Positions 27,497-60,617 of a stretch of DNA of 60,997 nt are shown here, piece after piece. The notes under the pieces were generated by a model that was not told where the DNA came from, ran no database searches, and saw only the letters and a program-made list of their open reading frames with translations. The DNA is taken from the NCBI GenBank assembly GCA_029941135.1, contig JAPYRI010000005.1:1-60997 (forward strand). Reading direction: 5' to 3'. Origin of the DNA: Alphaproteobacteria bacterium (GTDB taxonomy: Bacteria; Pseudomonadota; Alphaproteobacteria; JAPYRI01). Both the position numbers and the translations under genes were made by a program. Position 1 is the stretch's first letter. Each line of letters opens with the position of its first letter.

Positions 27497-27526
27497 CCCC
27501 TTGAACACCTAGAACTGTAGGGTCCA

Positions 27527-29271: not shown

Positions 29272-29303
29272 CGGCGAGCAGTCCAGATAAAGGGAGATTG
29301 GTA

Positions 29304-30410: not shown

Positions 30411-30413
30411 CTT

Positions 30414-32845: not shown

Positions 32846-34145
32846 GTCCGTCCGGCCCCATTATGTGCTGTGCCCGCAGCCAATTGAGCGCCATCCCTTC
32901 TTTGACATCCACAGATTCTTGACCATCGATCAGATCTATTAGCGGCACCAAAGGCGTGCCTTCAATAAACCTCACGCCGCGGGGTTGATTGGCCGTAACA
33001 ACGACTTCCCGGCGCTCAATAAAGCCGTTCTCGATAACGGCCGTTCTTTGGATACGGGGAACTTGACCTGCTGGCACAGCATGCGCGGGTACCTCGTCCG
33101 GCCAGTCACGTCGGGTCTGCCAATATGACAGATCTGACCAGCGTTGCTCGGATCGATAAAAATCCCGCCCCACCCGGGCGTGCCGCAGAAACGCCTCACG
33201 TGCGCGGGTTCGATAGAAGTCGCGCGCCAACTCCGCAACTCTGGGTCTTTGCAATATCGTATGCACCACGGGTGCCGCCGCCATCCCGGCGCCGACCGCT
33301 TCAAACATGCCATGCCCTGACAATGGGTCAATTCCAAACGCTGCATCACCCACCCGAATAACTCCCTCTGAAATTGGCTTCTCGTGCAAATAGGGGGTCG
33401 ATTCGCGCACCAAAACTGGACTGATCGCACGAGCATTTTTGCCGAGGCACTGCTGAATTTCCGGAATTTGATCAATCAGCGCATCGAACAAAGGCGTCAA
33501 ATTTGAGTGTCGCGCCCACGATCCTCGTGCGCCATCTACGATGATTTGCAAACTGCCGCCAGACTCGTCATCGCCCGCGAACCACGCCCACCCTTTGGGA
33601 AAACTCGCGATCCAGGTGCCCGCGTGCGAGATCGCACAGTTTTCGAAACGGCGGGACAACGCCAAACCAGGGCACCCACGCGTGGCGACCGCGCGCGACC
33701 GCGGGGCACGGCGTCCCCGGGCCTCAACCAGAAAATGACCGCGCATTTCACTGTACGCACCGCCAAGCCTGACAAACTGAACCCGGCATTCCTCAGCCGT
33801 AGACCGAACGTTTACTATTCGGCCTTCGGTGACGGCAACGCCACTTGCTTGAGCATCGGCCAGGAGGGCTGCGTCGAATTCGCGACGGCTAAGCAGCTGC
33901 TCCGTGTTGGCATCGCTTGTTGCACCATTCCAGCTCGCAGTGCGTGGCACAGGATCGCCCAGAAGGGCGACGGCACGCACGCATCCCGCATTCTTCAGAC
34001 CCTCTAGCACACGGATTGAAAGTCCTTCGATTATGACAGATGTCCGATGTTGAGCGATCAAGTGAACTTGATACCCAAGCCGGCTTAAGTGAAGGGCAGA
34101 CACGCATCCAGCAGGACCACCACCGAGGACAATAACATTTTCCAT
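32787..34145 (-). CDS. qhpG: Flavoprotein monooxygenase for CTQ formation
   Basis: A 452-residue FAD-dependent protein with the N-terminal dinucleotide loop VIVLGGGPAGCVSALHLSRLG and a second FAD motif IRVGDAAFGIDPLSGHGMFEAV (GD motif). QhpG has been shown in Paracoccus to dihydroxylate the tryptophan of the gamma subunit before quinone formation. Here the gene is on the opposite strand from the other qhp genes, converging on qhpE and overlapping it by 59 bases. The ending after the FAD domain (RRLGVRFIEGTPLVPLIDLI region) is a C-terminal domain specific to this group. Divergent regulation from the main operon is possible. Confidence 0.88.
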   Translation of the reverse strand: MENVIVLGGGPAGCVSALHLSRLGYQVHLIAQHRTSVIIEGLSIRVLEGLKNAGCVRAVALLGDPVPRTASWNGATSDANTEQLLSRREFDAALLADAQASGVAVTEGRIVNVRSTAEECRVQFVRLGGAYSEMRGHFLVEARGRRAPRSRAVATRGCPGLALSRRFENCAISHAGTWIASFPKGWAWFAGDDESGGSLQIIVDGARGSWARHSNLTPLFDALIDQIPEIQQCLGKNARAISPVLVRESTPYLHEKPISEGVIRVGDAAFGIDPLSGHGMFEAVGAGMAAAPVVHTILQRPRVAELARDFYRTRAREAFLRHARVGRDFYRSEQRWSDLSYWQTRRDWPDEVPAHAVPAGQVPRIQRTAVIENGFIERREVVVTANQPRGVRFIEGTPLVPLIDLIDGQESVDVKEGMALNWLRAQHIMGPDGLTVSAAQLRDNCTVRRRTE

Positions 34146-40657: not shown

Positions 40658-41911
40658 ATGGAAGACGTTTACATCATTGGCGCCTCATCAACTCGTTTTC
40701 AGAAATGGCCGGAAAAATCGTACAAAGAACTGACCCGCGAAGCTTATCTGGCGGCCCTGGAAGATGCCGGGATGGCAGAGGGCGGCCCGATCCAAAGCGC
40801 ATGGTTTGGTAATTGCGGCATGTGGACGGAGAAACAGGGCTCAATACGCGGCCAGGTATGCTTCACCCCCCTCGTCCGCGAAGGTTTGTTTCCCGAACGG
40901 GTCCCAATGATCAATGTAGAAAGCGGGTGCGCAACTGCCTCAATGGCGTTGAACGGCGCCTGGAAGGACATTGTCAGCGGCCAATCCAACATGGCCATCG
41001 CCATGGGTGTTGAAAAAACCTACTTCCCTGACGCGCCGGAAAACACGGCAGCCCTCTACAATGGCGGCATAGATCAGTTCAACCCGGAAGAATGGCAAGC
41101 TTATTATGCTGCTGCCGGCGACACTGCCGGCAAGCCTTTTGAACCCGGTTCGGACCGCACCATATTCATGGACACCTACGCCATGCAGGCATGCTTCCAC
41201 ATGAAAAAATATGGCACAACCCAGCGACAAATTGCCGCGAGCGCAGCAAAAAACCATCGCAACGGGGTGGATAACCCCAAAGCGCAATACAGTTTTAATC
41301 TAACCATCGACAAAGTATTGGAAGACCGGCCGGTCACCTATCCGCTCACCCGATCCATGTGCGCGCCTACCGGCGACGGCGCTGCTGCGGCCATCGTCTG
41401 CTCGGGAAGCTATTTGAAGACATTGCCCAGCGAAGTTCAGGAGCGTGCGGTAAAGATCGCGGCAACCACATTAAGCGGCGGCAAATACAGAACGTTGGAC
41501 GAACCTGGTCTCAGCCGCACGGCTGCCGAAAAAGCATACAAAATGGCCGACTTGGCGCCTGATGATATGGATGTCGCCGAAGTGCACGACGCAACTTCGT
41601 TCTGCGAGATTTATCAGTGTGAAATGATGGGGTTCGCCGAAGAGGGCAAGGGCGGTCAGCTGGTTGAGAGCGGCGGCACTTCGAATGGCGGCAAGATACC
41701 CGTCAACATGTCGGGCGGCCTGGTCTCGAAAGGACATCCGGTGGGCGCAACCGGTCTTTCCATGATCGACGAGCTTACCACGCAATTGCGCGGCGAAGCC
41801 GGTGTACGACAAGTTGAAGGCGCACGCCGGGCTTTGGCCGAAAACGGGGGTGGGGTCATCGGATTTGACGAAGCCGCCTGCTCGGTGATTATTCTGGAAA
41901 AGACGACTTAG
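40658..41911 (+). CDS. SCP-x-type thiolase / acetyl-CoA acyltransferase
   Basis: A 417-residue thiolase-fold protein of the non-classical, sterol-carrier-protein-X-like branch. The acyl-enzyme cysteine is in NVESGCATASMALNG, the catalytic His in KGHPVGATGLSMIDEL, and EVHDATSFCEIYQCEMMGFAEEG is typical of this branch. The second cysteine motif near the C-terminus reads NGGGVIGFDEAACSVI, which departs from the classical thiolase CxGGG. Relatives cleave 3-oxoacyl-CoA thioesters with branched or bulky chains such as sterol side chains. It lies 37 bases after the acyl-CoA dehydrogenase. Confidence 0.87.
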   Translation: MEDVYIIGASSTRFQKWPEKSYKELTREAYLAALEDAGMAEGGPIQSAWFGNCGMWTEKQGSIRGQVCFTPLVREGLFPERVPMINVESGCATASMALNGAWKDIVSGQSNMAIAMGVEKTYFPDAPENTAALYNGGIDQFNPEEWQAYYAAAGDTAGKPFEPGSDRTIFMDTYAMQACFHMKKYGTTQRQIAASAAKNHRNGVDNPKAQYSFNLTIDKVLEDRPVTYPLTRSMCAPTGDGAAAAIVCSGSYLKTLPSEVQERAVKIAATTLSGGKYRTLDEPGLSRTAAEKAYKMADLAPDDMDVAEVHDATSFCEIYQCEMMGFAEEGKGGQLVESGGTSNGGKIPVNMSGGLVSKGHPVGATGLSMIDELTTQLRGEAGVRQVEGARRALAENGGGVIGFDEAACSVIILEKTT

Positions 41912-44795: not shown

Positions 44796-44798
44796 GTG

Positions 44799-46424
44799 AT
44801 GACACCGCCCAGCAAAGCAGCTTCCACTAGTTCTGCGGCTACGAAAGAACTCCGGCGCACACCTTCAGGCATTGAAATTCCGCTGATCGCGACCCCGAAC
44901 ATGCGGCAGGGCACTCTGGAAACTCCAGGAGAGGCGCCCTTTACCCGTGGTATTTTTCCCGACGGGTACCGGGGACGCATGTGGACCATGCGCCAGTATT
45001 CGGGATTTGGGACCGCCGAAGAATCGAACGAACGCTACCAATTTCTGATGGAACAAGGTCAAACCGGTTTGTCGGTCGCCCTCGACTTGCCGACACAATG
45101 CGGCTACGACCCAACCGACCCCATGGCGTCGGCAGAGGTCGGCAAAGTCGGGGTATCGCTTTCTAACCTGCGCGAGTTCGAGATACTGTTCAACAACATC
45201 GAACTGGACCGGGTATCCACGTCATTTACCATCAACGGCACGGCAGCAATCGTCTATGCCATGTACGTGGCCGCCGCCGATAAGGCGGGCATTCCGCGCG
45301 ATAAACTAACCGGCACAATCCAAAACGACATCCTCAAGGAATATGTCGCGCGGGGCACCTGGATTTTCCCGGTTCGGCCCTCGATGCGCCTCATCGCCGA
45401 CAGTGTTTTGTTCGCCAACAAAGAAACGCCGCGTTTCAATCCCATCTCCATCGCCGGCGCCCATGTGCGTGACGCGGGTTGCAATGCGGCTGAAGAAATG
45501 GGCTACACCCTGGCCAACGGCGTCGCCTATGTGGAAGAACTTTTGCGGCGCGGTGGCGACGTCAACAAGTTCGCCAAACGGCTAAGTTTTTTCTTCTATG
45601 TCCACATGGATTTCTTTGAAGAAATATCAAAGTTCCGCGCGGCGCGCCGTGTATGGGCCAACATTATGAAAGATAAGTTTGGCGCCACAGACCCCAAGGC
45701 CCTGATGTTCCGGTTTGGCGTCGTGTGTGGCGGATCGTCGCTCACCGCCGCGCAACCGCTGAACAATGTGGTCCGGGTAGGCATCGAAAATATGGCGGCG
45801 GTTCTGGGTGGCGCTCAATCCATCTTCACCTGCGCGTTTGACGAAGCTTTTCAGATCCCGACTGAACAAAGTGCCGAGCTCGCCCTGCGCACACAACAAA
45901 TCGTGGCGCATGAAAGCGGCATCGCCGACTCGGTCGACCCCTTGGGTGGCAGTTATTTTGTCGAGCACATGACCGACCAGATGGAAGCGGAAATCCTCAA
46001 AGTCATGGCGGATATCGACGAATATGGAGGCGTCGAAAAAGCGATTGAGGAAGGCTACATCCAAATGAAGATCGCCCAACGTGCCCGCGAGCGAAAAGAA
46101 AAAGTCGATAACGGGGAACGAATTGTCGTTGGCGTAAACAAGTATCAGCGGGACGAAACTGACCAGGGGTTTGGCGAAGTGTTTGAATTGGACCCTTCCG
46201 CGCGTGACCGAATACTCGATAAGTATCAAATGGTTATGGATACCCGTGACAATACGGAAGCGCAGAAACTTCTGCAACGGCTGGGCACCGCCGCCGCCGC
46301 CGAGGGGGAAAATCTTTTGCCGTATATTGTCGATTGTTGTCATGGCTATGTGACGGTTGGGGAAATGGTCGGTGAGCTAAAAAGTCACTGGGGTGAATTT
46401 CAAGAACCGGTTCGCCTGACATAG
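44799..46424 (+). CDS. B12-dependent acyl-CoA mutase large subunit
   Basis: A 541-residue catalytic subunit without the cobalamin domain, as in split mutases. The family N-terminus TMRQYSGFGTAEESNERYQ keeps Tyr67 (equivalent of Tyr89 in methylmalonyl-CoA mutase) and PSMR keeps Arg197. However the conserved segment SISGYH has Ala221 before His222, and the RFHTQT segment reads RFGVVC (residues 305-310). Several substrate-pocket residues thus differ from methylmalonyl-, isobutyryl- and hydroxyisobutyryl-CoA mutases. The reaction is a carbon-skeleton rearrangement of an unknown acyl-CoA. It lies 3 bases after the crotonase stop, with a GTG at 44796 as alternative start. Confidence 0.85.
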   Translation: MTPPSKAASTSSAATKELRRTPSGIEIPLIATPNMRQGTLETPGEAPFTRGIFPDGYRGRMWTMRQYSGFGTAEESNERYQFLMEQGQTGLSVALDLPTQCGYDPTDPMASAEVGKVGVSLSNLREFEILFNNIELDRVSTSFTINGTAAIVYAMYVAAADKAGIPRDKLTGTIQNDILKEYVARGTWIFPVRPSMRLIADSVLFANKETPRFNPISIAGAHVRDAGCNAAEEMGYTLANGVAYVEELLRRGGDVNKFAKRLSFFFYVHMDFFEEISKFRAARRVWANIMKDKFGATDPKALMFRFGVVCGGSSLTAAQPLNNVVRVGIENMAAVLGGAQSIFTCAFDEAFQIPTEQSAELALRTQQIVAHESGIADSVDPLGGSYFVEHMTDQMEAEILKVMADIDEYGGVEKAIEEGYIQMKIAQRARERKEKVDNGERIVVGVNKYQRDETDQGFGEVFELDPSARDRILDKYQMVMDTRDNTEAQKLLQRLGTAAAAEGENLLPYIVDCCHGYVTVGEMVGELKSHWGEFQEPVRLT

Positions 46425-46438
46425 GGGAGAAACATGAC

Positions 46439-46834
46439 GTGTCGCTAAAAGGAAAACGAATATTGATCGCAAAGCCCGGTTTGGACGGTCACGACGTGGG
46501 CGCAAAGATCATTGCCCTCGCCTTGCGGGACGCAGGTGCGGACGTCATCTACACTGGTCTCAGAAAATCACCTGAATACATTGCGCGCATAGCGGTCGAT
46601 GAAGATGTGGACGCGGTGGGACTAAGTATCCTCTCAGGTTCTCACAATGAATTGGTCGCGGAAACCATAAAACTGCTCCGCGAGATGGATGCAGATGATG
46701 TCAAAATTTTTGTCGGGGGCACCGTTTCCGGCGACGACGTGCAAAAACTTAAAGTCGCTGGTGTGGCCGGTGTATTCACCAGCGAAATGAAAATCGAAGA
46801 TACCCTAGCTGAACTTTCCGACGTTCTAGGCTGA
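46439..46834 (+). CDS. B12-binding small subunit of the acyl-CoA mutase
   Basis: A 131-residue cobalamin-binding domain. The DxHxxG signature is Asp16-x-His18-x-x-Gly21 (GLDGHDVGAK), with the lower axial ligand His18, followed by GLSILSGSHNEL and FVGGTVSGDD. It pairs with the large subunit to form the mutase. The GTG start at 46439 has GGGGAG 9 bases upstream. An out-of-frame ATG at 46434 with the same ribosome-binding site opens a four-codon reading frame (ATGACGTGTCGCTAA) that overlaps the start, which might lower or couple translation. No MeaB-type chaperone gene is present in the window. Confidence 0.92.
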   Translation: MSLKGKRILIAKPGLDGHDVGAKIIALALRDAGADVIYTGLRKSPEYIARIAVDEDVDAVGLSILSGSHNELVAETIKLLREMDADDVKIFVGGTVSGDDVQKLKVAGVAGVFTSEMKIEDTLAELSDVLG

Positions 46835-48975: not shown

Positions 48976-50055
48976 ATGAAATTCGGCGCAATGGTCGCGA
49001 CCAAAATTGACAACTGGCAATTGCTCAAAGAAGCGGAGGACCTGGGCTACGACCACGCTTGGGTGCCCGATTCTCAAATGATCTGGTCTGACTGCTACGC
49101 GACGCTGGCATTGCTTGCCGAGCATACGTCACGCATCAAAATCGGCACTGGAGTTGCGATTACCGGCACGCGCGCGGCGCCCGTAACCGCGCACTCAATC
49201 GCCACCATCAATCGCTTGGCGCCGGGGAGGACGTTTCTCGGTATTGGCACCGGCCACACCGCCATGCGGGTGATGGGCATGAACCCCACAAAACCGAAGG
49301 CATTTCGCGAATATTTGCGAGTGGTACGCGCGTTGCTGGCGGGCGAAGAAGTTGAATACACCCTGGATGGGCAAACCCAGGCGATCAAGTTCCTCCATCT
49401 CGACCGCAATTTCATCGATATCGCGCATGAAATACCCATTTACGTGGCAGCAAACGGGCCAACCGCGCTCAAATCAGCCGGCGCCTACGGGGATGGTCGG
49501 ATCTCGGCCCTCAGCGAACCCGCCGATATGACCGCCGCGAGCTTGGATCAGGTAAAAGTTGGCGCTGACGAAATTGGGCGCGAATTTCCCTCTGATTTTC
49601 ATACGGCCGCCCTAACCACGGCGACTGTCCTAAAACCTGGCGAGACTCTCAAGACCGATCGGATCATTGACGAATGTGGCTCTCAAGTGATGGCCGCATT
49701 TCACTATGTGTACGAAGTATTCAAGTTGACCCAGGACGAAAGCATCGTACCGCCTTCAATCGAAAACGATTGGGAAGCTTATTGCCAACGAGTAGCCCAA
49801 ATGGAAACACCGGAAGAAAAACGCTATTTGGAACTACACGAAGGTCATTGCTCTTATCTCGTGCCGGAAGAGCGGCGGTTTGTCACGCCGGACGCGATTA
49901 GAACTTTCTGCCTGGCTGGAGAACCCGATGAAATCATTGATGAATTGCGCGAGCGGGAGAGATCCGGCCTGAAGGAAATAACACTACTGCCACCCATGGA
50001 CTACGCACGCAATGTGCTGCGCGATTTCTCGGAATTGGTCATGGCAAAGTACTAA
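48976..50055 (+). CDS. LLM-class flavin-dependent oxidoreductase
   Basis: A 359-residue luciferase-like TIM-barrel protein from the ATG at 48976, preceded by GGGAGGA. The beginning KFGAMVATKIDNWQLLKEAE, the RIKIGTGVAITGTRAAP segment and FLGIGTGHTAMRVMG (phosphate-binding loop) are standard for bacterial luciferase-like and F420-dependent enzymes. Both FMN-dependent monooxygenases and F420-dependent dehydrogenases have this fold; an alphaproteobacterial host favours FMN. It could oxidise a ketone or aldehyde. It is 28 bases upstream of the swivel-domain gene and opens the tightest part of the operon. Confidence 0.88.
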   Translation: MKFGAMVATKIDNWQLLKEAEDLGYDHAWVPDSQMIWSDCYATLALLAEHTSRIKIGTGVAITGTRAAPVTAHSIATINRLAPGRTFLGIGTGHTAMRVMGMNPTKPKAFREYLRVVRALLAGEEVEYTLDGQTQAIKFLHLDRNFIDIAHEIPIYVAANGPTALKSAGAYGDGRISALSEPADMTAASLDQVKVGADEIGREFPSDFHTAALTTATVLKPGETLKTDRIIDECGSQVMAAFHYVYEVFKLTQDESIVPPSIENDWEAYCQRVAQMETPEEKRYLELHEGHCSYLVPEERRFVTPDAIRTFCLAGEPDEIIDELRERERSGLKEITLLPPMDYARNVLRDFSELVMAKY

Positions 50056-50083: not shown

Positions 50084-50794
50084 TTGGTAAAACCCTTTTT
50101 CGACACCGACAAATATACCCGCGAGCCGGCGTCCCCCACGGTGATTGCCTTTCATAAAGCGATCAAAGATCTGGTGCGCAGCCACATGGAAGCGGGCGGT
50201 AATTGGAACGCCTTTGTCTTTGGCGAGCAGGAAAACGTGGTCAACGCCGATGCCCTTCAAGCCATCGAAGATGCGTTTCTGAAAACCGGCTATCGGTATC
50301 AAGGCTCGGCAATGATTTCGATTGAGGAGGAGCCAGAAAAATACCAAATTTTGGCGACCGCCACCAACTCGGAAATTAAATTGCCGCCCCCGGATGCGAA
50401 CGGCCGCATCTTGTGCGGCACCGGCGACAATGTGGTCCAGTTTTCTGAAAATACCGTCGGGACAGCGCTATATGTGCGCACGAGCGAGCAGGTTCTTTCG
50501 CTGCTGGAAGACGGCGTGCCCGACAACACCATTGCCATCATTGACGACAGTGGTGGCACCTTGACTGCGCCCGTACTTGAGTACTTCAAAGGAGTTGTAT
50601 GCATGGGCGGCACGGTGCGCTCTCATTTGGGTATCCTGTGCCGGGAATACGGCATTCCATGTCTCATGAACTCTGGTGTTGCCGGCATCGAGGACGGCGA
50701 CGCGGTCGAGATGGAAACCTCCGCCGCCGCCAAAACTGCCGAGGCCTATCAGAAAAATATTGAGATGACCGCAAACATCTGGAAACAATGCTGA
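50084..50794 (+). CDS. Small phosphohistidine-swivel (PEP-utilising mobile domain) protein
   Basis: A 236-residue protein starting with TTG at 50084, with GGGAG about 9 bases upstream. The first 90 residues match nothing I know. The C-terminal half is a PEP-utilising-enzyme mobile domain: GGTVRSHLGILCREYGIPC contains His181, the residue phosphorylated in PEP synthase and pyruvate phosphate dikinase. The ATP-grasp and PEP domains are absent, so it must receive or pass phosphate with a partner. The dikinase-like protein two genes downstream is the obvious candidate. The arrangement recalls the separate subunits of phenylphosphate synthase. Confidence 0.82.
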   Translation: MVKPFFDTDKYTREPASPTVIAFHKAIKDLVRSHMEAGGNWNAFVFGEQENVVNADALQAIEDAFLKTGYRYQGSAMISIEEEPEKYQILATATNSEIKLPPPDANGRILCGTGDNVVQFSENTVGTALYVRTSEQVLSLLEDGVPDNTIAIIDDSGGTLTAPVLEYFKGVVCMGGTVRSHLGILCREYGIPCLMNSGVAGIEDGDAVEMETSAAAKTAEAYQKNIEMTANIWKQC

Positions 50795-50812
50795 CGAAAG
50801 GCTAATTGCCCC

Positions 50813-52966
50813 GTGACCCTTCCCATTACTTACGCCCAATTATTGGAGACCAACAATCTGGTTCAGGCGTGCAACGACGAATCCTATTGGCTGTGCGTCA
50901 CCCGCACGGTACAAGAATCGAAGTTGTTCCCCGTACCCGCCTATATGTTGCTGTCCTACCTGATGGTCTACTACCGGTATCCTGAGCTGCTGCGCAAAAT
51001 CGAAACCAGCATGCGGGCTGAAGACATCGGCGACCGGTCACGCAACATGGGAATCAAAACCCAAGCGTCCCATATTGCCTGGTGCATGCCCGGATTTTAC
51101 CTTCTTGCGCGCGAATATCTGATCAGCATGGGCCTTATCCGTCCTCAAGACGGGGTCGAAGACTTGGTTTACCTGATGGATTTTTGGAAGCGGCATCAAC
51201 TGTCGTGGCATCGGAACGATGGTCACATCTCCAATAAGGAGTTCGGCCACCGGAGCCAAATCCTGCCTGAACGCCTGCTTCAAATTTTTGAAGCTGATTT
51301 ATTCGAATGCCGTCAGGGCGATAGCCTCCACGAAGCAGCGATGAAGTTCACGGCAACCGTCTCCCAGTATATTTTTCTCATTCACTGCGAAAGTCGAATC
51401 GGCCTCGCCAACACCGGGCCGTACAAGTTTGGTGACAACCGGGAGCTATTGGTCCGTGATTTTATGGACCTCTCCGAGGGCGACTATCCATGGATGGACG
51501 GGGTTGCAACCGACGTCCCCTACAACAATTTGACCATTCCCATGGTGGTCGAGGATTGCCATTTCTATTTGGTGGATGACTGGGCGAGCTTTGAATCCGA
51601 GCCCGAATTCAAAGCCGAGAAAGTCGTGAGCGTTGGCCTCTACACGTCGGACACGTTGAGTGAAGGCTACATGCCGGTCGGCATGGATAGCGCGGAAGAA
51701 CTCGCCAAAACTTTCGTCGATCTGAACGAGACCGTCAAAGAAGCCAGCGCCAAGCTGTGGAAGCGAATTGCCGGCTGGTCCCGGGAAGAGATGATGGACG
51801 CGGGCGCCCTCACCTATTTTTCGGTGATAAAGGACTTAGCCCACGTTGCCGGGGTTTATGAGTTCGATGATTGGATGACCATCGATGCGCGTGCCGAACG
51901 CTTCCGGCCTATATTGAATGATGAGTATGGCCGTGATTGCCTGGGTGAACTGCTCGGCTCGATGACCAACCCCAATCAACAGATAAATGAATATTCAATG
52001 ATGCAGCATTCCAATTTGCCGCAGCGTATGTTCTCCCACGTTCCCTATTCGATATTAGCGGACGGCGACTTCACCGCCACTTGCGGTAGAACGCAGGCAG
52101 GTACCAGTCACATGAGCGCCAAAACCGGTAAGTACCGAACGACACGGGGCTTGCTTGACTTGGACGACTACAATCGGCTTGCGCGCGATTTCACACCCAA
52201 GGTGTGTTCTGACAAATTTCGTTTCCTCGACGAAAATTGGGTCAAATACAATTACGACACGCCGCTTGCCGACGAACTTTACAGGGCGGAGCAAGAATCA
52301 TCTCGCAATCTGCAGGGCAAAGGCGCAGGTCTGAAGCGGGTTGACCTGCCACCTTCTCCCCCGCCAAGCGGCGATTTGCTCGCACTCCACGGATTAGCGA
52401 TCAAAAAGATGAGCACAGCTGACGTGGTTGCAGACATTCTTGGACTCGAGGTCACAGATGTATCAACCGCACTGGAAGCCGCCGTCGCTGCTCAGCAAGT
52501 TGCTATCGTAAGAGACGCCTTTATGTTGAAGCCTGCGGGGCAAGCGGCGCTCGACGCAGCCTACCCAAAAATGTTCGCGGGTTTGCGGGCAAGCGAAGAT
52601 TTCGTTGCTGCTTACGAGCGATTCGAAGTTGTAAATAACGATTTGAAGCAGTTGATTACCGACTGGCAAACCCTGGAAATTGCAGGCTCGAGGGTGCCCA
52701 ATGATCACAGCAACAAAGACTACGATGACGGCATTATCGATCGCTTGGGTACCTTGCATGATCGTGCGGAAACTGTGCTGGATGTCTTAGCGTTGGCCGA
52801 AACCCGGCTCGGCCGCTACACCGACAAATTGCTGGTGGCGCTTGAGAAATCCGAAGATGGCGAAACAGATTTCGTGAGCGGGGCCCGGGTCGAGTCCTAT
52901 CACACGGTTTGGTTTGAGTTACACGAAGATTTGCTGCGGATTTTGGGCCAAGAGCGGGACGAGTAG
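50813..52966 (+). CDS. Large protein of unknown function in the swivel/dikinase operon
   Basis: A 717-residue, probably cytoplasmic protein that I do not recognise. The N-terminal 450 residues are mixed alpha/beta and rich in aromatic, His and Cys residues, for example QASHIAWCMPGFYLLARE, FLIHCESRIGLANTGPY, MVVEDCHFYLVDDW and TCGRTQAGTSHMSAK. A Pro-rich linker near residue 510 (PPSPPPSGD) separates a helical C-terminal region that may contain a small winged-helix-like part (about 520-570) and a long coiled coil. It begins 18 bases after the swivel gene and ends 6 bases before the dikinase-like gene, so it is probably part of the same enzyme, perhaps the substrate-binding subunit. Confidence 0.75.
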   Translation: MTLPITYAQLLETNNLVQACNDESYWLCVTRTVQESKLFPVPAYMLLSYLMVYYRYPELLRKIETSMRAEDIGDRSRNMGIKTQASHIAWCMPGFYLLAREYLISMGLIRPQDGVEDLVYLMDFWKRHQLSWHRNDGHISNKEFGHRSQILPERLLQIFEADLFECRQGDSLHEAAMKFTATVSQYIFLIHCESRIGLANTGPYKFGDNRELLVRDFMDLSEGDYPWMDGVATDVPYNNLTIPMVVEDCHFYLVDDWASFESEPEFKAEKVVSVGLYTSDTLSEGYMPVGMDSAEELAKTFVDLNETVKEASAKLWKRIAGWSREEMMDAGALTYFSVIKDLAHVAGVYEFDDWMTIDARAERFRPILNDEYGRDCLGELLGSMTNPNQQINEYSMMQHSNLPQRMFSHVPYSILADGDFTATCGRTQAGTSHMSAKTGKYRTTRGLLDLDDYNRLARDFTPKVCSDKFRFLDENWVKYNYDTPLADELYRAEQESSRNLQGKGAGLKRVDLPPSPPPSGDLLALHGLAIKKMSTADVVADILGLEVTDVSTALEAAVAAQQVAIVRDAFMLKPAGQAALDAAYPKMFAGLRASEDFVAAYERFEVVNNDLKQLITDWQTLEIAGSRVPNDHSNKDYDDGIIDRLGTLHDRAETVLDVLALAETRLGRYTDKLLVALEKSEDGETDFVSGARVESYHTVWFELHEDLLRILGQERDE

Positions 52967-52972
52967 TTCGGA

Positions 52973-54700
52973 ATGGAGTCGGCTGAGAACAAGAGGTCCG
53001 AGAACAAATGGGTAATGCGGCTCGACGGTGCGACCTTGCCCGACCGCGATCTGATCGGCGGTAAGGCGTGGAGCATAGCACGCCTGCGCAACCTGGGCTT
53101 GCCCACTTCACCCGCCGTTGCGGCTACCACCGAGGCATGCCGTGCCTTTATGAAAACTGGTGATCTCCCCGCTGGCCTGATGGACGAGCTTCGTGTCGGC
53201 ATTGAAGAGATTGAACACGAGACCGGACGAAAGTTTGGTGGCACTGAACATCCCTTGCTGGTCGCGGTCAGATCGGGTGCGCCGATCAGCATGCCAGGCA
53301 TGATGGACACAGTGCTCAATTTAGGCATGACAGATGCGGTCGAACTGGCACTGGCACAAGAAAGCGGCGATCCGGAATTTGCCGCCGACACCCGGCGTCG
53401 ATTTCTCGAACTTTACGACACCATTGTGCTCAAAAATTCCGGTGCCGAGGTGCCGGAAACTGCCGACGCGCAGTTGGCAGGTGCCGTACGCGCCGTGTTT
53501 GAGTCGTGGAATTCCCGGCGCGCTAAACGTTATCGCAAACACAACGGCATCCCCGACGACCTTGGTACAGCGGTTACAATTCAGGCCATGGTGTTCGGAA
53601 ACCTAGACGATCAGAGCGGCACTGGTGTTTTATTCAGCCGCAATCCCTTGACCGGCGACCCCGCACCCTACGGCGAATATCTCGCTTGTGCGCAAGGAGA
53701 AGACGTGGTGTCAGGCAAAGTGACGCCGCAGCCGCTTTCCGCCCTAGAGGCCGCCCAACCGGGCGCCCACAAAGAATTGTTGAAGGCGGCCGCCTTATTG
53801 GAGTGTGAAAGCGGCGACGTTCAGGATATCGAGTTCACCATCCAACAGGGCAAATTGTATTTGCTCCAATCGCGGTCGGCCAAAAGATCGCCCTCTGCGG
53901 CCGTTCGCTTTGCCATCGATTTCGTGCGCGAAGGAAAGATCGACAAAAGTGAAGCCTTGCGCCGGGTGACATCCGAACAAATACGCACTTTGCTTCGCCC
54001 GCGTCTTGAAGACGGAGCTGACAACCGCCCTAAGCCTGTCGCGGTAGGTGAAGCTGCTTGTCAGGGTGTTGGTGTTGGTGTTGTCGTGACCGCCGCGGAC
54101 AGCGCCGAGGCCGAAGCCGCAAAGGGCCACAAAGTTATACTTGCCCGCCCCACCACCAGCCCCGAAGACGTGCATGGCATGCTGGTTGCCGAAGCCGTCA
54201 TCACCGAACAAGGGGGGCCAACTTCCCATGCAGCGGTGGTCAGTCGGGCGTTGGGTTTACCCTGTGTGGTCGGATGCGGCGATGGTGCGTTGACCAACCT
54301 CGGTGGCCAGACTGTCACCGTGGATGGCGAAAAAGGGCACGTTTATGACGCGGTATTACCGGTAAAAGTGCCGGACGAAAGGGAAGAAGGCGGCCTCAGC
54401 GACCTCATTAATTGGGCTTCTGAGATTTCCCCCGTGGTGGTGTACAGCGCTTCTGACGCCCTACCTGAAAGTCTAGGTGATGCCGACATTGTTGATTTGG
54501 ATCACTTGACCGATGGTGAAGACTCCGATCATATCGCTCGCTTACTTAATGGTGCGATTGCTGCCCGGGGCAGCATCCTGAATTCGGACGCAGGCGTGTC
54601 CGCCGCGATAAGATCCGGTGTCAAAACCATCATTGTCCGCCACACCCTACCGGCCCTCCTGGCCGCGTGCGCGAATACGGATACCATTACAGAAACTTGA
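52973..54700 (+). CDS. Pyruvate-phosphate-dikinase-like protein lacking the PEP-binding barrel
   Basis: A 575-residue protein with the ATP-grasp domain of PPDK (about residues 20-330: LIGGKAWSIARLRNLGLP, AVRSGAPISMPGMMDTVLNLG, TGVLFSRNPLTGDP, QDIEFTIQQGKLYLLQSR) and the phosphohistidine domain (about 355-460) with His419 in EQGGPTSHAAVVSRALGLP. Complete PPDK continues with an alpha/beta barrel of over 300 residues that binds pyruvate; here only about 115 unrelated residues follow. It should therefore hydrolyse ATP and phosphorylate its histidine but hand the phosphate to a non-pyruvate acceptor. It follows the 717-residue gene by 6 bases. Confidence 0.88.
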   Translation: MESAENKRSENKWVMRLDGATLPDRDLIGGKAWSIARLRNLGLPTSPAVAATTEACRAFMKTGDLPAGLMDELRVGIEEIEHETGRKFGGTEHPLLVAVRSGAPISMPGMMDTVLNLGMTDAVELALAQESGDPEFAADTRRRFLELYDTIVLKNSGAEVPETADAQLAGAVRAVFESWNSRRAKRYRKHNGIPDDLGTAVTIQAMVFGNLDDQSGTGVLFSRNPLTGDPAPYGEYLACAQGEDVVSGKVTPQPLSALEAAQPGAHKELLKAAALLECESGDVQDIEFTIQQGKLYLLQSRSAKRSPSAAVRFAIDFVREGKIDKSEALRRVTSEQIRTLLRPRLEDGADNRPKPVAVGEAACQGVGVGVVVTAADSAEAEAAKGHKVILARPTTSPEDVHGMLVAEAVITEQGGPTSHAAVVSRALGLPCVVGCGDGALTNLGGQTVTVDGEKGHVYDAVLPVKVPDEREEGGLSDLINWASEISPVVVYSASDALPESLGDADIVDLDHLTDGEDSDHIARLLNGAIAARGSILNSDAGVSAAIRSGVKTIIVRHTLPALLAACANTDTITET

Positions 54701-54710
54701 GGATTGTGGC

Positions 54711-55193
54711 TTGGATCAAACAAAGAACAATATTCGTGCGCTAGTAAGATTGTTCGAGCAATCGGACTGGGATGAACTACGCGTTGAAACCAAAGACTTA
54801 AAGCTCGTAATTTCGAAAAATGCGAACGCACCTGGCCTGACGGTTTTAGAGAATGCACCACGCACACGATTGCCCAGTACCGCGGACGCCGAAATCACGG
54901 ATGCGACTGAACCCGCCGCCAAAAGCGAACCGGCTGAAATTCCTGAAGGATTGGTGGCGGTGCGGGCACCCAATTTGGGCACCTTTTGGCGCGCCCCCAA
55001 ACCTGGCGCCGCGCCCTATATCGAAGTTGGGCAAAAAGTAAATGCCGACACGATGGTGTGCTTGATCGAAGTGATGAAGTTGTTCACCCCAATAAATGCG
55101 GGAATTGCTGGCACCGTCGTCGAACTTGTCGCTGAGAACAGCGCCATGGTCGAATACGGCGATACCCTTGTCCTCATTGATCCCAGCACTTGA
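54711..55193 (+). CDS. Biotin carboxyl carrier protein
   Basis: A 160-residue AccB-like carrier from a TTG at 54711, with GAGGA 7 bases upstream. The N-terminal helix region (about residues 1-35, ALVRLFEQSDWDELRVETKD) resembles the AccB N-terminus, then an Ala/Glu-rich linker leads to the biotinyl domain (about 80-158). The biotinylated residue is Lys123 in LIEVMKLFTPI; Val replaces the more usual Ala in EAMK. It should swing carboxybiotin between the next two gene products. It starts 10 bases after the dikinase-like gene, tying both modules in one message. Confidence 0.92.
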   Translation: MDQTKNNIRALVRLFEQSDWDELRVETKDLKLVISKNANAPGLTVLENAPRTRLPSTADAEITDATEPAAKSEPAEIPEGLVAVRAPNLGTFWRAPKPGAAPYIEVGQKVNADTMVCLIEVMKLFTPINAGIAGTVVELVAENSAMVEYGDTLVLIDPST

Positions 55194-55214
55194 TCTGGAC
55201 GAGCACCTAATCTC

Positions 55215-56585
55215 ATGAACCTCTCGCGTGTATTTGTCGCCAATCGGGGAGAAATCGCGGTGCGAGTGCTGCGCGCTTGTCGCAAGCTTGAGCTCTCTTC
55301 AGTAATTGGCGTGTCGGAGGCCGACCAGGAAAGCACCGGGGCAATGATGGCTGATCGTGCAATTGTTATAGGCCCAGCTCCCTCAAAGGACAGCTACCTC
55401 AAGCCAGACCTCATCGTTTCGGCAGCGGTAAACAGCGGTTGCGATGCGCTTCATCCTGGCTATGGTTTCTTGTCTGAACGCGGTGAACTGGCCGAAATGT
55501 GTGCCGAAAACGGGATCGCTTTCGTTGGCCCCACAGCCGATACCATTCGTAAAGTGGGCGATAAAATTTCTGCCAGGGAACTAGCCCGCGCGGCCGGAGT
55601 TCCCCTGGTTCCCGGATCCGGCGAAGTGTCCACTGTGGAGCAGGCCAAATCAGCGGCAAGCGACGTGGGTTATCCTATCGTACTGAAAGCGACCGCCGGC
55701 GGCGGCGGGCGTGGTATGGCAGTCGCCCGGGCGGACGAAGACATTGCGAGAACTTTCGACGCCGCGTCCTTAGAAGCCGAAGAAGCGTTCGGCGACGGCA
55801 CTCTTTACGTGGAACGCTTTGTTGAGAACGCCCGCCATGTGGAAGTTCAGATATTGGGTGACGGCAAAGGCAACGTGCTTCATTTCGGCGACCGGGATTG
55901 TTCAGCCCAGCGGCGTTATCAAAAAGTCGTGGAAGAAGCCCCCGCAACTGCTGTGCCGGATGATATTCGCACGAACATGCGTGAAGCTGCCGTGCGCTTG
56001 GCCAAAAGTATCAATTACCGCAATGCGGGCACCGTCGAATTTCTCTACGATCAAAACCACAATGCGTTCTACTTCATCGAAGTGAATGCGCGCATCCAAG
56101 TCGAACATCCGGTCACCGAAGAGATTACCGGCGTTGATCTGGTGGTCGCGCAACTCAAAATCGCGGCCGGCGAACCCCTCGGGTTAACTCAAGACATGAT
56201 CGCACTCAGCGGACACGCCATCGAATGCCGGATCAACGCCGAAATGCCGCTGCGGGACTTCGCGCCATCGCCTGGACGAATTACCGCCTGGTTGCCACCC
56301 GAGGGCGACGGCGTACGTGTCGATAGTCATTGCGAGCAGGGCTACACGGTTCCGCCCTATTATGACAGCATGATTGGGAAGCTGATCGTCCACGGCGCGA
56401 CCCGCACGGAAGCCATATCGCGCATGCGTGGCGCGCTCGCCGATTTCCGCATCGATGGCATACATACCAATACCCACTTGCAAGCCTTTCTGGTGGGCCA
56501 TCGGGATTTCAAAGACAATAAAATTAACACCAAATGGCTGGAGACAACTCTCCTGCCCGCGTATTCAAGCGTAATGGGAGATTAG
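55215..56585 (+). CDS. Biotin carboxylase subunit
   Basis: A 456-residue ATP-grasp biotin carboxylase of AccC/PycA size. Standard motifs are VFVANRGEIAVRVLRAC, HPGYGFLSERGELAEMC, TAGGGGRGMAVA (ATP-binding glycine loop), HFGDRDCSAQRRYQKVVEEAP and IEVNARIQVEHPVTEEITG, where the catalytic loop has Ala for the common Thr. It carboxylates biotin on the carrier protein using ATP and bicarbonate. The subunit composition BCCP-BC-CT looks like a split pyruvate-carboxylase type enzyme rather than acetyl-CoA carboxylase. It lies 21 bases after the carrier gene and 6 bases before the carboxyltransferase-like gene. Confidence 0.94.
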   Translation: MNLSRVFVANRGEIAVRVLRACRKLELSSVIGVSEADQESTGAMMADRAIVIGPAPSKDSYLKPDLIVSAAVNSGCDALHPGYGFLSERGELAEMCAENGIAFVGPTADTIRKVGDKISARELARAAGVPLVPGSGEVSTVEQAKSAASDVGYPIVLKATAGGGGRGMAVARADEDIARTFDAASLEAEEAFGDGTLYVERFVENARHVEVQILGDGKGNVLHFGDRDCSAQRRYQKVVEEAPATAVPDDIRTNMREAAVRLAKSINYRNAGTVEFLYDQNHNAFYFIEVNARIQVEHPVTEEITGVDLVVAQLKIAAGEPLGLTQDMIALSGHAIECRINAEMPLRDFAPSPGRITAWLPPEGDGVRVDSHCEQGYTVPPYYDSMIGKLIVHGATRTEAISRMRGALADFRIDGIHTNTHLQAFLVGHRDFKDNKINTKWLETTLLPAYSSVMGD

Positions 56586-56591
56586 ATCGGA

Positions 56592-58061
56592 ATGGCGGTA
56601 ATTGAGTTTCTTGATGAGACCATGCGAGACGGGCAGCAAAGCCTGTGGGGCATGCGCATGCAGGCGGGCATGGCGCTGCCCATTACCCCCACCATCGACA
56701 AGGTTGGTTTTCGGGTCGTTGACCTCACCGGCAGCTCCATGTTCGAAGTGCTGATCCGCCATTGCCAGGAAAACCCCTGGGAGGGCCTCGATCTATTAGT
56801 CAGTTCCATGCCCAACAGCAAAATCCGTGCGGGTATGCGCAGTAACGCGGCAGTGACCTTTGGGGTGACCCCCGACGCTTTAATGGATGTGTGGATGCAT
56901 CAGCTCTGCCGTCACGGCATCAAGAGCATGTGGATTTATGACGTCCTGTTCAACATCGACAAGACCTACCGATTGGCAAAGATCGCCAAGGAATATGATG
57001 TCGAAGTGGCGGGCGCGATCATGTTCACCATGAGCCCCGTGCACACCGACGCACACTACGCAGACAAGGCGCAGAAGCTCGCTGCATGCGCGGATATCGA
57101 CACCCTGTTACTCTACGACACGGCTGGCGTTTTGGGCCCGGAGCGTTTGCGCACCCTGGTGCCGGCTCTCATTGAGCAGGCCAACGGTAAGCCGATCGAA
57201 TTTCACTCGAACAATATACTGGGCGCGTCAGCCATTGCTTATCTGGAGGCGGTCAAGTTGGGCGTCACCATTTTGCATACTGCAAGTCGTCCCATGGCCA
57301 ACGGCCCTTCGGTGCCATCGACCGAGATTATGGTGCGGAACATCGAATTGCTAGGACACAGCCATGGTCTAGATACGTCGTTGTTGCCGCCCATTGCCGA
57401 ACATTTCGAAAAAGTTGCCTCAGCCGCCGGTTTCCCAACAGGCGTGCCCAATGAGTATGATTTGTTTTCAATCGAGCATCAGATCCCCGGCGGCATGGTC
57501 GGCACCTTTAAGGCCCAACTCGATCAGCACAAAATGCCGGAAAAACTGGACGAAGTGCTGGCAGAATCTGCCATCGTCCGGCGCGAACTGGGTTACCCTG
57601 GCATGGCGACCCCGTTTTCGCAATTGGTGGGCACGTTGGCGGTGCTGAACGTGGTGACCGGCAAGCGCTATACAGTCATCCCGGACGAGGTGATCCAATA
57701 CGCCGCCGGATACTACGGTGACCCGGTTGCACCGATCGATCCGAACGTATTGGACATCATTATGGGCTCGGCTCGCGCCAAGGAAATTCTGACCTCTCCG
57801 CCAGCCCAGCCCAGTCTTGAGGACTTAAGAAAAGAGTTCGGCACCGGCGATGACGACGACGAGCTCATCTTGCGGGCTCTGGTTCCCGAAGCCGATCTGG
57901 ATAAAATGCGCGCAGCCGGGCCAGTCAAACAAACTTATCCTATGCTGTCATCGCCAGAGCTTGAATACGCGCGCAAACTGATGGCCAGCACCAGCGCCAA
58001 TTTTCTTGAAATCGAAACCACCGACCTGTCGCTGTCGTTGCGCCGAGGCCCAAACTCTTAG
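56592..58061 (+). CDS. Carboxyltransferase-like DRE-TIM subunit with altered metal site
   Basis: A 489-residue protein similar to the carboxyltransferase subunit of pyruvate carboxylase and oxaloacetate decarboxylase. The start FLDETMRDGQQSLWGMRM keeps Asp8, Arg12, Asp13 and Gln16. Later ATPFSQLVGTLAVLNVV and PGGMVGTFKAQLDQH match. But the lysine carbamylated in pyruvate carboxylase (KDMAG context) is Tyr175 in LLYDTAG, and the HxH metal ligands are His205-Ser-Asn207. The acceptor is therefore probably not pyruvate. The C-terminal 60 residues are a domain of unknown role. It ends a block with gaps of 6 to 28 bases. Confidence 0.85.
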   Translation: MAVIEFLDETMRDGQQSLWGMRMQAGMALPITPTIDKVGFRVVDLTGSSMFEVLIRHCQENPWEGLDLLVSSMPNSKIRAGMRSNAAVTFGVTPDALMDVWMHQLCRHGIKSMWIYDVLFNIDKTYRLAKIAKEYDVEVAGAIMFTMSPVHTDAHYADKAQKLAACADIDTLLLYDTAGVLGPERLRTLVPALIEQANGKPIEFHSNNILGASAIAYLEAVKLGVTILHTASRPMANGPSVPSTEIMVRNIELLGHSHGLDTSLLPPIAEHFEKVASAAGFPTGVPNEYDLFSIEHQIPGGMVGTFKAQLDQHKMPEKLDEVLAESAIVRRELGYPGMATPFSQLVGTLAVLNVVTGKRYTVIPDEVIQYAAGYYGDPVAPIDPNVLDIIMGSARAKEILTSPPAQPSLEDLRKEFGTGDDDDELILRALVPEADLDKMRAAGPVKQTYPMLSSPELEYARKLMASTSANFLEIETTDLSLSLRRGPNS

Positions 58062-58128: not shown

Positions 58129-59349
58129 ATGGCGAATCCGAGCAAGACTCTGTTTTCCGGGTTGCGAATCCTCGACTTGACCCGGGCCGTCGCCGGACCC
58201 ACATGCACGCGCATGTTCTCTGAGCTGGGGGCGGACGTGATTAAAGTGGAGGCTTTTCCGGAAGGTGATCTGACCCGTCAGGTATCCAAAATCAGAAACG
58301 AGCGAAGTCTGTACTTCGTTCAGCAAAATCTTGGCAAAAAAAGCCTATGCGTTGATCTGCGCAATCCGAAAGGTCTGCAATTGGTCAAGGATTTAGTGCC
58401 ATTGGTCGATGTCGTGGTGCAAAACTTCAAGCCCGGGGTGATGGCGTCAATGGGGATGGCCTACGACGATCTGAAGGAGCTAAAGCAAGACATTATCTTG
58501 TGCTCGATATCGTCGCTCGGTCAGACCGGCTCACTTGCTGAAAAGCCCGGCTACGACATGATCGCCCAATCTTACGCGGGCGTAACATCGATGGTCGGTG
58601 ACCCGGACGATGCACCTTGCTTTCCCCAATTGGCGATCGGCGACGTCAGCACCGGTGTCATGGGAGCTTTCTCAGTGCTCGCCGCCCTCTATCACCGGGA
58701 CCGTACCGGCGAAGGTCAACACTTGGACGTGAGCATTCTCGACACTTACTACCATAGCCACGAAGCAAGCGTTCATCAGTACAGCGGCAGCAACGGTAAG
58801 ATCGAACCCAACAGAACCGGTCGCCATATGAATTATTTGGCCCCAGCCGGCGTTTTTCGCGCCAATGGAGGCTATATCACGATCATGTCTTTCCTCCATC
58901 ACTGGAAGGATTTATGCGCGGCAATGGACCGCCCCGAATTGGCAGAAGACGAAAGATTAGGAAACGATGAAGGCCGCCTCGAGAATTTGGATGAAGTCAT
59001 TGAGTTGATCGAAAGCTGGCTCCAGAATTTTCCGGACCGGGATACCGCAATGGACAAACTTGACGAATTTGGTGTGCCGGCGGGCCCTGTCTTAACGATC
59101 GCCGAAACAGTCGCCCATCCTCACCTTCGAGAGCGAGGGACTGTGCGCACAATTGATGATCGGATTGCGGGAAAATTCGAGATCCCCGGCTTGCCGCCGA
59201 AGTTCTCAAAGTTCCCCGACTTGCCCGAGTTCGATGCGCCTACTTTGGGTGAGCACAACGAAGAGATTATAACCAATATCCTGGGTCGTTCAGACGACGA
59301 GCTTGCTGAGTTAAGGAATGCCGGGATCCTAAAAGAGAAAAATATTTGA
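58129..59349 (+). CDS. CaiB/BaiF family (class III) CoA transferase, first copy
   Basis: A 406-residue class III CoA transferase. The N-terminus SGLRILDLTRAVAGPTCTRM and ELGADVIKVEAFPEGDLTR bind CoA; QNLGKKSLCVDLRNPKG, VQNFKPGVMASMGM and GYDMIAQSYAGVTSMVG follow, and the acyl-enzyme aspartate is in QHLDVSILDTYY. The family moves CoA between carboxylic acids without ATP. Length and motifs are complete. It is 67 bases after the carboxyltransferase-like gene and has a GGGAGGG ribosome-binding site. It is closely similar to the next gene along its full length. Confidence 0.92.
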   Translation: MANPSKTLFSGLRILDLTRAVAGPTCTRMFSELGADVIKVEAFPEGDLTRQVSKIRNERSLYFVQQNLGKKSLCVDLRNPKGLQLVKDLVPLVDVVVQNFKPGVMASMGMAYDDLKELKQDIILCSISSLGQTGSLAEKPGYDMIAQSYAGVTSMVGDPDDAPCFPQLAIGDVSTGVMGAFSVLAALYHRDRTGEGQHLDVSILDTYYHSHEASVHQYSGSNGKIEPNRTGRHMNYLAPAGVFRANGGYITIMSFLHHWKDLCAAMDRPELAEDERLGNDEGRLENLDEVIELIESWLQNFPDRDTAMDKLDEFGVPAGPVLTIAETVAHPHLRERGTVRTIDDRIAGKFEIPGLPPKFSKFPDLPEFDAPTLGEHNEEIITNILGRSDDELAELRNAGILKEKNI

Positions 59350-59396: not shown

Positions 59397-60617
59397 ATGA
59401 CCGGCGCGACTGAACCACTTTTCGAGGGCCTCAAAATACTCGACTTTACACGCGCCCTCGCAGGCCCAACCTGTACCCGCATGTTTGCTGAAATGGGCGC
59501 CGATGTGATCAAGGTCGAGTCGGCGCCAAACGGCGATCTAACCCGTCAAATGTCTAAGATACGGAATGATCGCAGCCTTTATTACATTCAGCAAAATCTT
59601 GGCAAACAAAGTCTTTGTGTAAATTTACGTGACCCTCGCGGCATCGCTCTCATGAAAGAACTCGTTCCCCATATGGATGTGGTGGTTGAAAACTTTAAGC
59701 CGGGCCGGATGGCATCCATGGGACTGGATTATGAAGCGCTCAAAGAACTGAAAGAGGACATCATTCTGTGTTCAATTTCGGCCATGGGGCAAACTGGCCC
59801 GCTGGCAACAAAACCAGGTTACGATTACATCGCCCAAGCCTATACCGGCGTCACTTCCATGATCGGCGATCCTAATGACGCACCCTCTATCCCACTTTTG
59901 GGCATCGGCGATGTCGCCACGGGCGTGCATGGGGCGTTTGCTGTTTTGGCGGCAATTTATCACCGGGAAAGAACCGGTCGGGGGCAGCATTTGGATGTTG
60001 CCCTGGCCGATGTTTATTACCATTGTCACGAAGTGAACGTGCACCAGTACACGGGCAGCAATGGTGAGATTAAGCCGACCCGCGGCGGTCGCCACATGAG
60101 CTACGTGTGCCCGGCTGGGGTGTTTCGCGCCAATGGCGGCGACATCATGATCATGGCGTTTCTCCATCACTTTAAGGATTTATGCGCGGCCATGGACCGC
60201 CCGGAATTGGTCACTAAAGAAGGGTGGACAACCGACCAGGAACGCTTGGCCAGGTTGGATGAAGTTGTGGCACTGGTCGAAACTTGGCTTCAGACTTTTC
60301 CTAGCCACTGGGACGCGATTGCAAAGATGGAAGAGCACGGCGTTCCCGTGGCGCCCATTCTGACCGTAGAAGACACGATCACTCACCCACACTTGCTACA
60401 TCGGGGTACGATCCGCACAATTAACGACCGGCTCGCGGGCGAATTCGGCATTCCCGGGATGCCGATTAAGTTTTCCGAATTTCCTGAGGATTTGCCCTTG
60501 GAGGCTGACACCCTGGGCCAGCACAATGCGCATATAATCACCGAGGTTTTGAATCACAGCGAAGAAGAATTGGCCCAATTACGCGCCGATGGAATATTGA
60601 ACGAAGGGGAGTTCTAA
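59397..60617 (+). CDS. CaiB/BaiF family (class III) CoA transferase, second copy
   Basis: A 406-residue paralogue of the preceding gene, of identical length, with the same blocks: EGLKILDFTRALAGPTCTRM, MGADVIKVESAPNGDLTRQ, QNLGKQSLCVNLRDPRG, VENFKPGRMASMGLDY and QHLDVALADVYYHCHEVN, where Ala-Asp replaces the Leu-Asp of the first copy at the aspartate position. A tandem duplication is likely. The two may form a heterodimer or act on different acids, such as the carboxylated intermediate and a donor. It lies 47 bases after the first copy and has an AGGGGGAAG ribosome-binding site. Confidence 0.92.
   Translation: MTGATEPLFEGLKILDFTRALAGPTCTRMFAEMGADVIKVESAPNGDLTRQMSKIRNDRSLYYIQQNLGKQSLCVNLRDPRGIALMKELVPHMDVVVENFKPGRMASMGLDYEALKELKEDIILCSISAMGQTGPLATKPGYDYIAQAYTGVTSMIGDPNDAPSIPLLGIGDVATGVHGAFAVLAAIYHRERTGRGQHLDVALADVYYHCHEVNVHQYTGSNGEIKPTRGGRHMSYVCPAGVFRANGGDIMIMAFLHHFKDLCAAMDRPELVTKEGWTTDQERLARLDEVVALVETWLQTFPSHWDAIAKMEEHGVPVAPILTVEDTITHPHLLHRGTIRTINDRLAGEFGIPGMPIKFSEFPEDLPLEADTLGQHNAHIITEVLNHSEEELAQLRADGILNEGEF

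Follow-up and report, generated by a model that had tools for sequence, protein, structure and literature searches.

A predicted multi-part phosphohistidine kinase encoded with a biotin-dependent carboxylase in an alphaproteobacterial operon

Which reaction would call for a pyruvate, phosphate dikinase (PPDK)-like protein and a biotin-dependent carboxylase encoded side by side? This question is raised by the window analysed here, a 60,997-nt stretch from Alphaproteobacteria bacterium (JAPYRI01; assembly GCA_029941135.1, contig JAPYRI010000005.1, positions 1–60,997). Six plus-strand genes (50084–58061) encode, in this order, a swivel protein, a 717-aa protein, a PPDK-like protein, a biotin carboxyl carrier protein (BCCP), a biotin carboxylase (BC) subunit, and a carboxyltransferase (CT), and they are separated by gaps of 18, 6, 10, 21, and 6 bases. 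The initial annotation had described such a tight operon, with this gene order and gaps of 6–21 bases, and its assignments of the swivel, barrel-less PPDK-like, BCCP, BC, and CT-like proteins were confirmed by Pfam and NCBIfam. It had also named no described system with this exact set. The idea that nothing similar is described was not supported, as the Hpe and Acv systems use a PEP-synthase-like dikinase to phosphorylate a hydroxy-ketone and a three-subunit biotin enzyme to carboxylate the product. In Rhodococcus rhodochrous GD02 (hpeHICBADEF), HpeHI phosphorylates 4-hydroxyacetophenone and acetovanillone, HpeCBA carboxylates the phosphorylated ketone only, and HpeD dephosphorylates (PMC9618137). 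For the acvABCDEF genes of Sphingobium SYK-6, a step order different from that of Hpe was proposed (PMC13101465). Our literature search for the exact gene set, which covered mainly openly accessible papers, found only the Hpe/Acv papers as related. 'Isophorone carboxylase', considered as a lead, yielded no paper.

The first gene (50084..50794, +), whose TTG start is supported by homologue alignment, encodes a free-standing phosphohistidine swivel protein of 236 aa (PF00391, E = 2.9e-7) with a conserved helical N-terminal extension. The PPDK-like protein of 575 aa (52973..54700, +; NCBIfam NF004531) consists of an ATP-grasp domain (PF01326, E = 4.8e-43) and its own swivel (PF00391, E = 1.8e-24) carrying His419. 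The two histidines named in the initial annotation proved real and invariant: His181 of the swivel protein was present in 30 of 30 relatives and His419 in 23 of 23. Going by the automatic annotations, 'pyruvate, phosphate dikinase' from NF004531 and 'pyruvate carboxylase subunit B', the operon would belong to ordinary PEP/pyruvate/oxaloacetate metabolism, in which a PPDK homologue works with an adjacent pyruvate carboxylase. We consider this very improbable: the Pfam search found no PF02896 in the PPDK-like protein, which is hence without the PEP/pyruvate barrel; the genome encodes a separate full-length PPDK (894-aa frame); the catalytic-site Lys of pyruvate-type CTs and one of their metal His residues are absent from the CT; and the genes are linked to those for CoA ligase, thiolase, phosphatase, and P450. 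The set is also rare, as only the window genome carried it in a phylum sample (1 of 398 genomes).

The 717-aa protein (50813..52966, +) had been called unknown, and no known family was indeed found for it; yet it is not a single protein in origin but a fusion. Its N module (residues 1 to ~513; 50813..52351, +) and C module (residues ~519–717; 52367..52963, +) are encoded by two separate genes in relatives. The N–C junction, SPPPSGDLLALHG, aligned with the beginning of the free C proteins, and a proline-rich linker joins the two modules in the window protein. Searches gave no credible Pfam/NCBIfam family and no PDB sequence match; a weak Pfam match to RdRP_4 (15 bits, under the cut-off) was discarded as noise. 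The AF2 model of the N module showed a pLDDT of 87 and a pTM of 0.90. When it was compared by Foldseek with the solved structures in the PDB, where RPH structures are public, the best E was 0.53 with TM ≤ 0.13, and RPH was absent among the hits shown. No homology of the N module to the HpeH/AcvA-type profile was detected (probability 0.1–0.2%), and the swivel protein was found to be homologous to the HpeH/AcvA-type swivel (profile match, probability 94.5%, E = 8e-8). From its place in the set and by exclusion, rather than by a fold match, N is predicted to be the substrate or phosphoacceptor module.

The AF2 model of the C module (pLDDT 96) comprised a winged helix followed by long helices, and it gave weak Foldseek matches to MarR. 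C carries the signature SxHTVWFExHEDxLxxxGRxR, in which Ser181, His183, Trp186, and His190 were invariant among 15 diverse relatives. On several plasmids C is annotated as a MarR-type transcription regulator. We rejected this as the main reading because C adjoins the PPDK gene nearly everywhere, because the window protein joins it to N, and because the invariant C-terminal signature sits outside the winged helix. On Rhodococcus, Streptomyces, and Mycobacterium plasmids (L031, L032, L033), a 500–550-aa 'pyruvate, phosphate dikinase' was observed beside a C-type gene; the name is probably wrong, because the proteins are too short for the barrel. On the Methylibium petroleiphilum PM1 plasmid (L030, 8436–17537), swivel and C-like genes adjoin a B12-dependent acyl-CoA mutase cluster.

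A genome scan with an N profile identified 80 named loci (130 relatives) in Alpha-, Beta-, and Gammaproteobacteria and Actinomycetota, and the parts were counted in the 47 loci with adequate flanks. The parts are conserved together, with all seven present in 41 of these loci, in agreement with the co-occurrence check proposed in the initial annotation. Since it is conserved across two phyla, the six-gene set is not due to chance, and the conserved set supports the earlier claim that a PEP-synthase/PPDK-type phosphotransferase is coupled with a biotin carboxylase. By family-level similarity thresholds applied to the fetched flanks only, CoA ligase and thiolase genes were found in 46 and 45 of the 47 loci, respectively; a SurE or PTP phosphatase was found in 34. 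Two gene orders recur and dominate. The usual one in Proteobacteria is swivel–N–AMP-binding CoA ligase–C–PPDK–BCCP–BC–CT–thiolase, and sphingomonads have N-BCCP-BC-CT and swivel-C-PPDK blocks with other genes between them. Besides the window's own genome, a close form occurred in 4 of 385 genomes of the class sample. At one locus (L067), the gene after the operon is biotin synthase-like. Metagenome-assembled records titled Klebsiella pneumoniae hold the operon or its parts at L040, L045, and L051; these titles look mislabelled.

We next consider the carboxylase. The BCCP gene (54711..55193, +; PF00364, E = 2.2e-15; TIGR00531 above cut-off) was set to start at TTG 54711; homologues align from around residue 32–38 of a longer ORF, which, from 54618, would overlap the preceding gene. 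It is followed by the genes for BC (55215..56585, +; PF00289, PF02786, and PF02785; NF006367 above cut-off) and for a CT of the pyruvate carboxylase type with an altered metal site (56592..58061, +; PF02436, E = 1.9e-26; PYC_OADA and HMGL-like). The CT was alignable with transcarboxylase 5S, OadA, and PycB over 446 residues, and has Tyr175 and Asn207 at the positions of K184 and H217 of 5S, which we take to be the carbamylated metal-ligand Lys and a metal His, respectively. Among 62 N-linked CTs, the K184 position was occupied by Tyr in 47, Glu in 15, and Lys in none, and H217 is replaced by Asn in the window clade. Acv-type, kinase-less, and OadA CTs retain the Lys and HxH, except for L029 (Glu), and so does the CT of a Rhodococcus JS3073 cluster that is Hpe-like gene for gene. 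In the tree, the N-linked CTs formed one clade (100/98), which includes the L029 CT from an unannotated stretch of an R. opacus plasmid and neighbours the Acv/Hpe-type CTs (97/91). As judged from the alignments, the N-linked CTs have lost the carbamylated metal-ligand Lys, and such an altered carboxylase site is undescribed; its chemistry may differ from that of Hpe. An argument from the loss of a catalytic Thr (PGGxxT to G) was dropped, the same change being present in one Acv-type CT.

Other CT operons were also observed. CT-BCCP-BC operons with a Lys-type CT and without a kinase occur at L037, L127, and L130; that of Cnuibacter (L037) lies beside 3-oxoacid CoA-transferase and thiolase genes and looks like one for direct biotin-dependent ketone carboxylation. 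In Sphingomonas bisphenolicum (L027) and Pseudomonas putida YC-AE1 (L034), Acv-like BCCP-BC-CT-HAD clusters have a gene for a Tm-1-like ATP-binding protein at the acvAB position, possibly a third kinase type serving the phosphorylate-carboxylate logic.

The kinase set thus comprises two distinct phosphohistidine swivels and a conserved winged-helix partner. Its parts are linked by fusions, N–C in the window and swivel–N at L024 (11475–13103). In the cluster of six actinobacterial genomes, three N genes occur per one PPDK gene, and on a Rhodococcus oxybenzonivorans plasmid each N has its own swivel where inspected, one of them fused. In one genome, that of Panacagrimonas perspica, a swivel-N pair lies ~357 kb from ligase-C-PPDK-BCCP-BC-CT. 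From these arrangements, PPDK and C would form the phosphate donor, and swivel and N a substrate-specific acceptor. Phosphate may be handed over from His419 to His181, or His181 may itself visit the ATP-grasp site. The multi-protein kinase class inside the operon is probably new. We further suggest, tentatively and with somewhat less than even confidence, that swivel, N, C, and the barrel-less PPDK together form a class of small-molecule kinase not described before. It would be a modular relay of phosphohistidines: a PPDK-like and C donor feeds several interchangeable swivel and N acceptors, with N as a new fold. This kinase would have been recruited alongside a biotin carboxylase with a CT that functions in the absence of the carbamate-lysine site and also, in a more distantly related branch, without any carboxylase. 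That distant branch without biotin carboxylase was observed at L019, L020, L023, L028, L121, and L124, and its parts are a small swivel, N, C, and a PPDK-like protein of ~840 aa; at L020, the next gene has a methane monooxygenase gamma domain.

The limits 50084–58061 given initially hold for the six genes, but the block extends beyond them on both sides. Upstream, the gene for a luciferase-like monooxygenase/oxidoreductase (LLM; 48976..50055, +; PF00296, E = 5.3e-47) ends 28 bases before the swivel gene and is likely on the operon's transcript, and a cytochrome P450 gene (47590..48831, +; PF00067) is likely part of the operon's catabolic island. Downstream lie genes for a class III CoA-transferase (58129..59349, +; PF02515, E = 4.5e-109) and, 47 bases after it, a second one (59397..60617, +), assigned to the family by similarity to the first. 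The CoA ligase of the relatives, encoded between the N and C genes, is missing in the window, and the window genome has no orthologue of it (best 37%) or of the classical thiolase (best 39%). The two CoA-transferases probably stand in for the lost ligase, and CoA activation via transferases would be the simplest reading for the window. The same island encodes, ~10 kb upstream, an SCP2-type thiolase (40658..41911, +) that shares 40.6% identity with its counterpart in the operon of Novosphingobium resinovorum. It also encodes methylmalonyl-CoA-mutase-like large and B12-binding small subunits (44796..46834, +; PF01642 and PF02310), in which the Tyr of RQY and the Arg of PSMR are present. These positions are presumably carboxylate-binding in methylmalonyl-CoA mutase, and the residues thus suggest a carboxylated acyl-CoA as the substrate.

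The window flanks hold P450s, the LLM oxidoreductase, and the mutase-like enzyme, and those of relatives hold thiolases, SDRs, GntR/FCD regulators, and acyl-CoA dehydrogenases. The gene content of the Sphingobium estronivorans flanks names no substrate, and no carboxylase or kinase of this kind is mentioned in a review of estrogen degradation from 2025. Elsewhere in the window (25895–34145), we observed an apparently complete quinohemoprotein amine dehydrogenase operon encoding an alpha subunit (four Qn_am_d domains), a radical SAM protein, a small ORF, an ABC exporter, a subtilisin-like protease, and an FAD-dependent protein.

The phosphatases bear on where the phosphate goes. In about 20 loci, a divergent SurE gene directly adjoins the swivel gene, and in 13 of 47 neither SurE nor PTP was found within the fetched flank. 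The window operon has no adjacent phosphatase gene. Its genome has no PTP of the relatives' family and a single SurE, probably the housekeeping copy because it is encoded beside the seryl-tRNA synthetase gene. Dedicated phosphatase genes accompany the operon in 34 of the 47 loci; the phosphate is therefore suggested to outlast the carboxylation step and to be taken off afterwards, as happens in Hpe. The initial annotation had tentatively named an enol or ketone as the phosphorylated substrate, with acetone carboxylase as a comparison. In a route close to this, the kinase would phosphorylate the enolised ketone, and the CT would carboxylate the resulting enol phosphate while the phosphate leaves; the ATP-dependent acetone and acetophenone carboxylases work in this way, but here biotin would be used. 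The altered CT metal site would suit an acceptor that can do without enolisation assisted by a metal, the classical thiolases of many operons fit a beta-keto acid product, and the two-ATP logic is known from acetone carboxylase (PMC5543143) and acetophenone carboxylase (PMC5214803). However, this route leaves the dedicated phosphatases without a task, and in the characterised analogue it is the phenol oxygen that carries the phosphate, which HpeD removes afterwards (PMC9618137). We therefore regard the enol-phosphate route as unlikely.

On balance, we favour, with moderate confidence, the reading that the operon phosphorylates a ketone-like compound via the multi-part kinase, then carboxylates it with biotin, dephosphorylates it, activates it with CoA, and cleaves it with a thiolase, as Hpe and Acv do but with an unrelated kinase substrate module. 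Here we infer in which order the steps run, where the phosphate is attached, how it is relayed, and to which class the substrate belongs; by analogy, the same step order as in Hpe, on another hydroxy-ketone, is the most likely. Phosphate would pass via the swivel histidines, His419 and/or His181, onto the substrate held by the N module, and the C module would assist PPDK and N, either structurally or in the relay. BC would load BCCP, and CT would move CO2 onto the phosphorylated ketone, next to the carbonyl. The phosphate would then be removed, in most relatives by the dedicated SurE or PTP phosphatase, and the CoA thioester would be made by the ligase (relatives) or the CoA-transferases (window) and cleaved by the thiolase.

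The kinase and the carboxylase could also belong to one pathway but have different intermediates as substrates or work in reverse order, with carboxylation first or another metabolite phosphorylated. The separate sphingomonad blocks, the distant swivel-N pair of Panacagrimonas, and the different order proposed for Acv of SYK-6 (PMC13101465) would fit such a pathway. Nevertheless, N, a kinase part, directly precedes BCCP-BC-CT in the sphingomonads, all parts co-occur with very few exceptions, and HpeCBA takes phosphorylated ketones only (PMC9618137). This arrangement thus seems quite unlikely compared with phosphorylation followed by carboxylation of the same ketone.

A 2022 report described ketone phosphorylation ahead of biotin carboxylation for lignin-derived acetophenones, and few bacteria were believed to use it. 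The occurrence of an unrelated kinase substrate module in Alpha-, Beta-, and Gammaproteobacteria and Actinomycetota points to more than one origin of the strategy, and phosphorylation-coupled carboxylation may be a general route to degrade compounds lacking a handle. The system also offers testable enzymology: the N family with no fold match or annotation, the two-swivel arrangement, the one donor with three acceptors, and the Lys-less CT of the pyruvate carboxylase type.

Among known systems, Hpe and Acv are the most similar. Both combine a kinase, BCCP, BC, and a pyruvate-type CT with a phosphatase, a CoA ligase, and C–C cleavage; their BC, BCCP, CT, and swivel are homologous to those of the window type, and the ATP-grasp domains are of one superfamily. 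In contrast, the kinase substrate module of the window type is not homologous to HpeH/AcvA, only the swivel being so; its swivel is free-standing, the PPDK-like protein carries a second one, and the C protein is extra. Hpe/Acv-type CTs keep the carbamate Lys that the window type lost. Hpe and Acv employ a HAD phosphatase and a beta-ketoacyl-CoA hydrolase, whereas the window's relatives have SurE/PTP and window-type loci a thiolase, and the window itself has CoA-transferases and no ligase.

The initial comparison with phenylphosphate synthase (PpsAB) was supported: HpeHI, CreHI, PpsAB, and RPH share with the window kinase an ATP-grasp domain and a swivel with an invariant His, and we infer that small-molecule phosphotransfer is common to them. 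The HpeH model was matched to RPH by its authors (PMC12167813), whereas N has neither a profile match nor a PDB fold match, and the window-type kinase consists of three to four proteins with two swivels. PPDK (NF004531, PRK05878 type) shares the ATP-grasp domain and the swivel with its catalytic His at a high score, but the window protein is without the PEP/pyruvate-binding barrel and has the C protein alongside. The CT belongs to the fold family of pyruvate carboxylase, oxaloacetate decarboxylase (OadA), and transcarboxylase 5S and aligns with them overall, but K184 of 5S is replaced by Tyr or Glu and, in the window clade, H217 by Asn. By these comparisons, the window kinase is outside the HpeHI/PpsAB/RPH family and not a PPDK, and its CT is without a defining metal ligand of the pyruvate carboxylase type. 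With the acetone and acetophenone carboxylases, the resemblance is one of comparison only, an ATP-costly carboxylation of ketones; Pfam found none of their hydantoinase-like subunits in the six proteins, and biotin subunits are present instead. The principle of phosphorylating and then carboxylating is thus already known from Hpe and Acv, whereas this kinase and the altered CT site are new.
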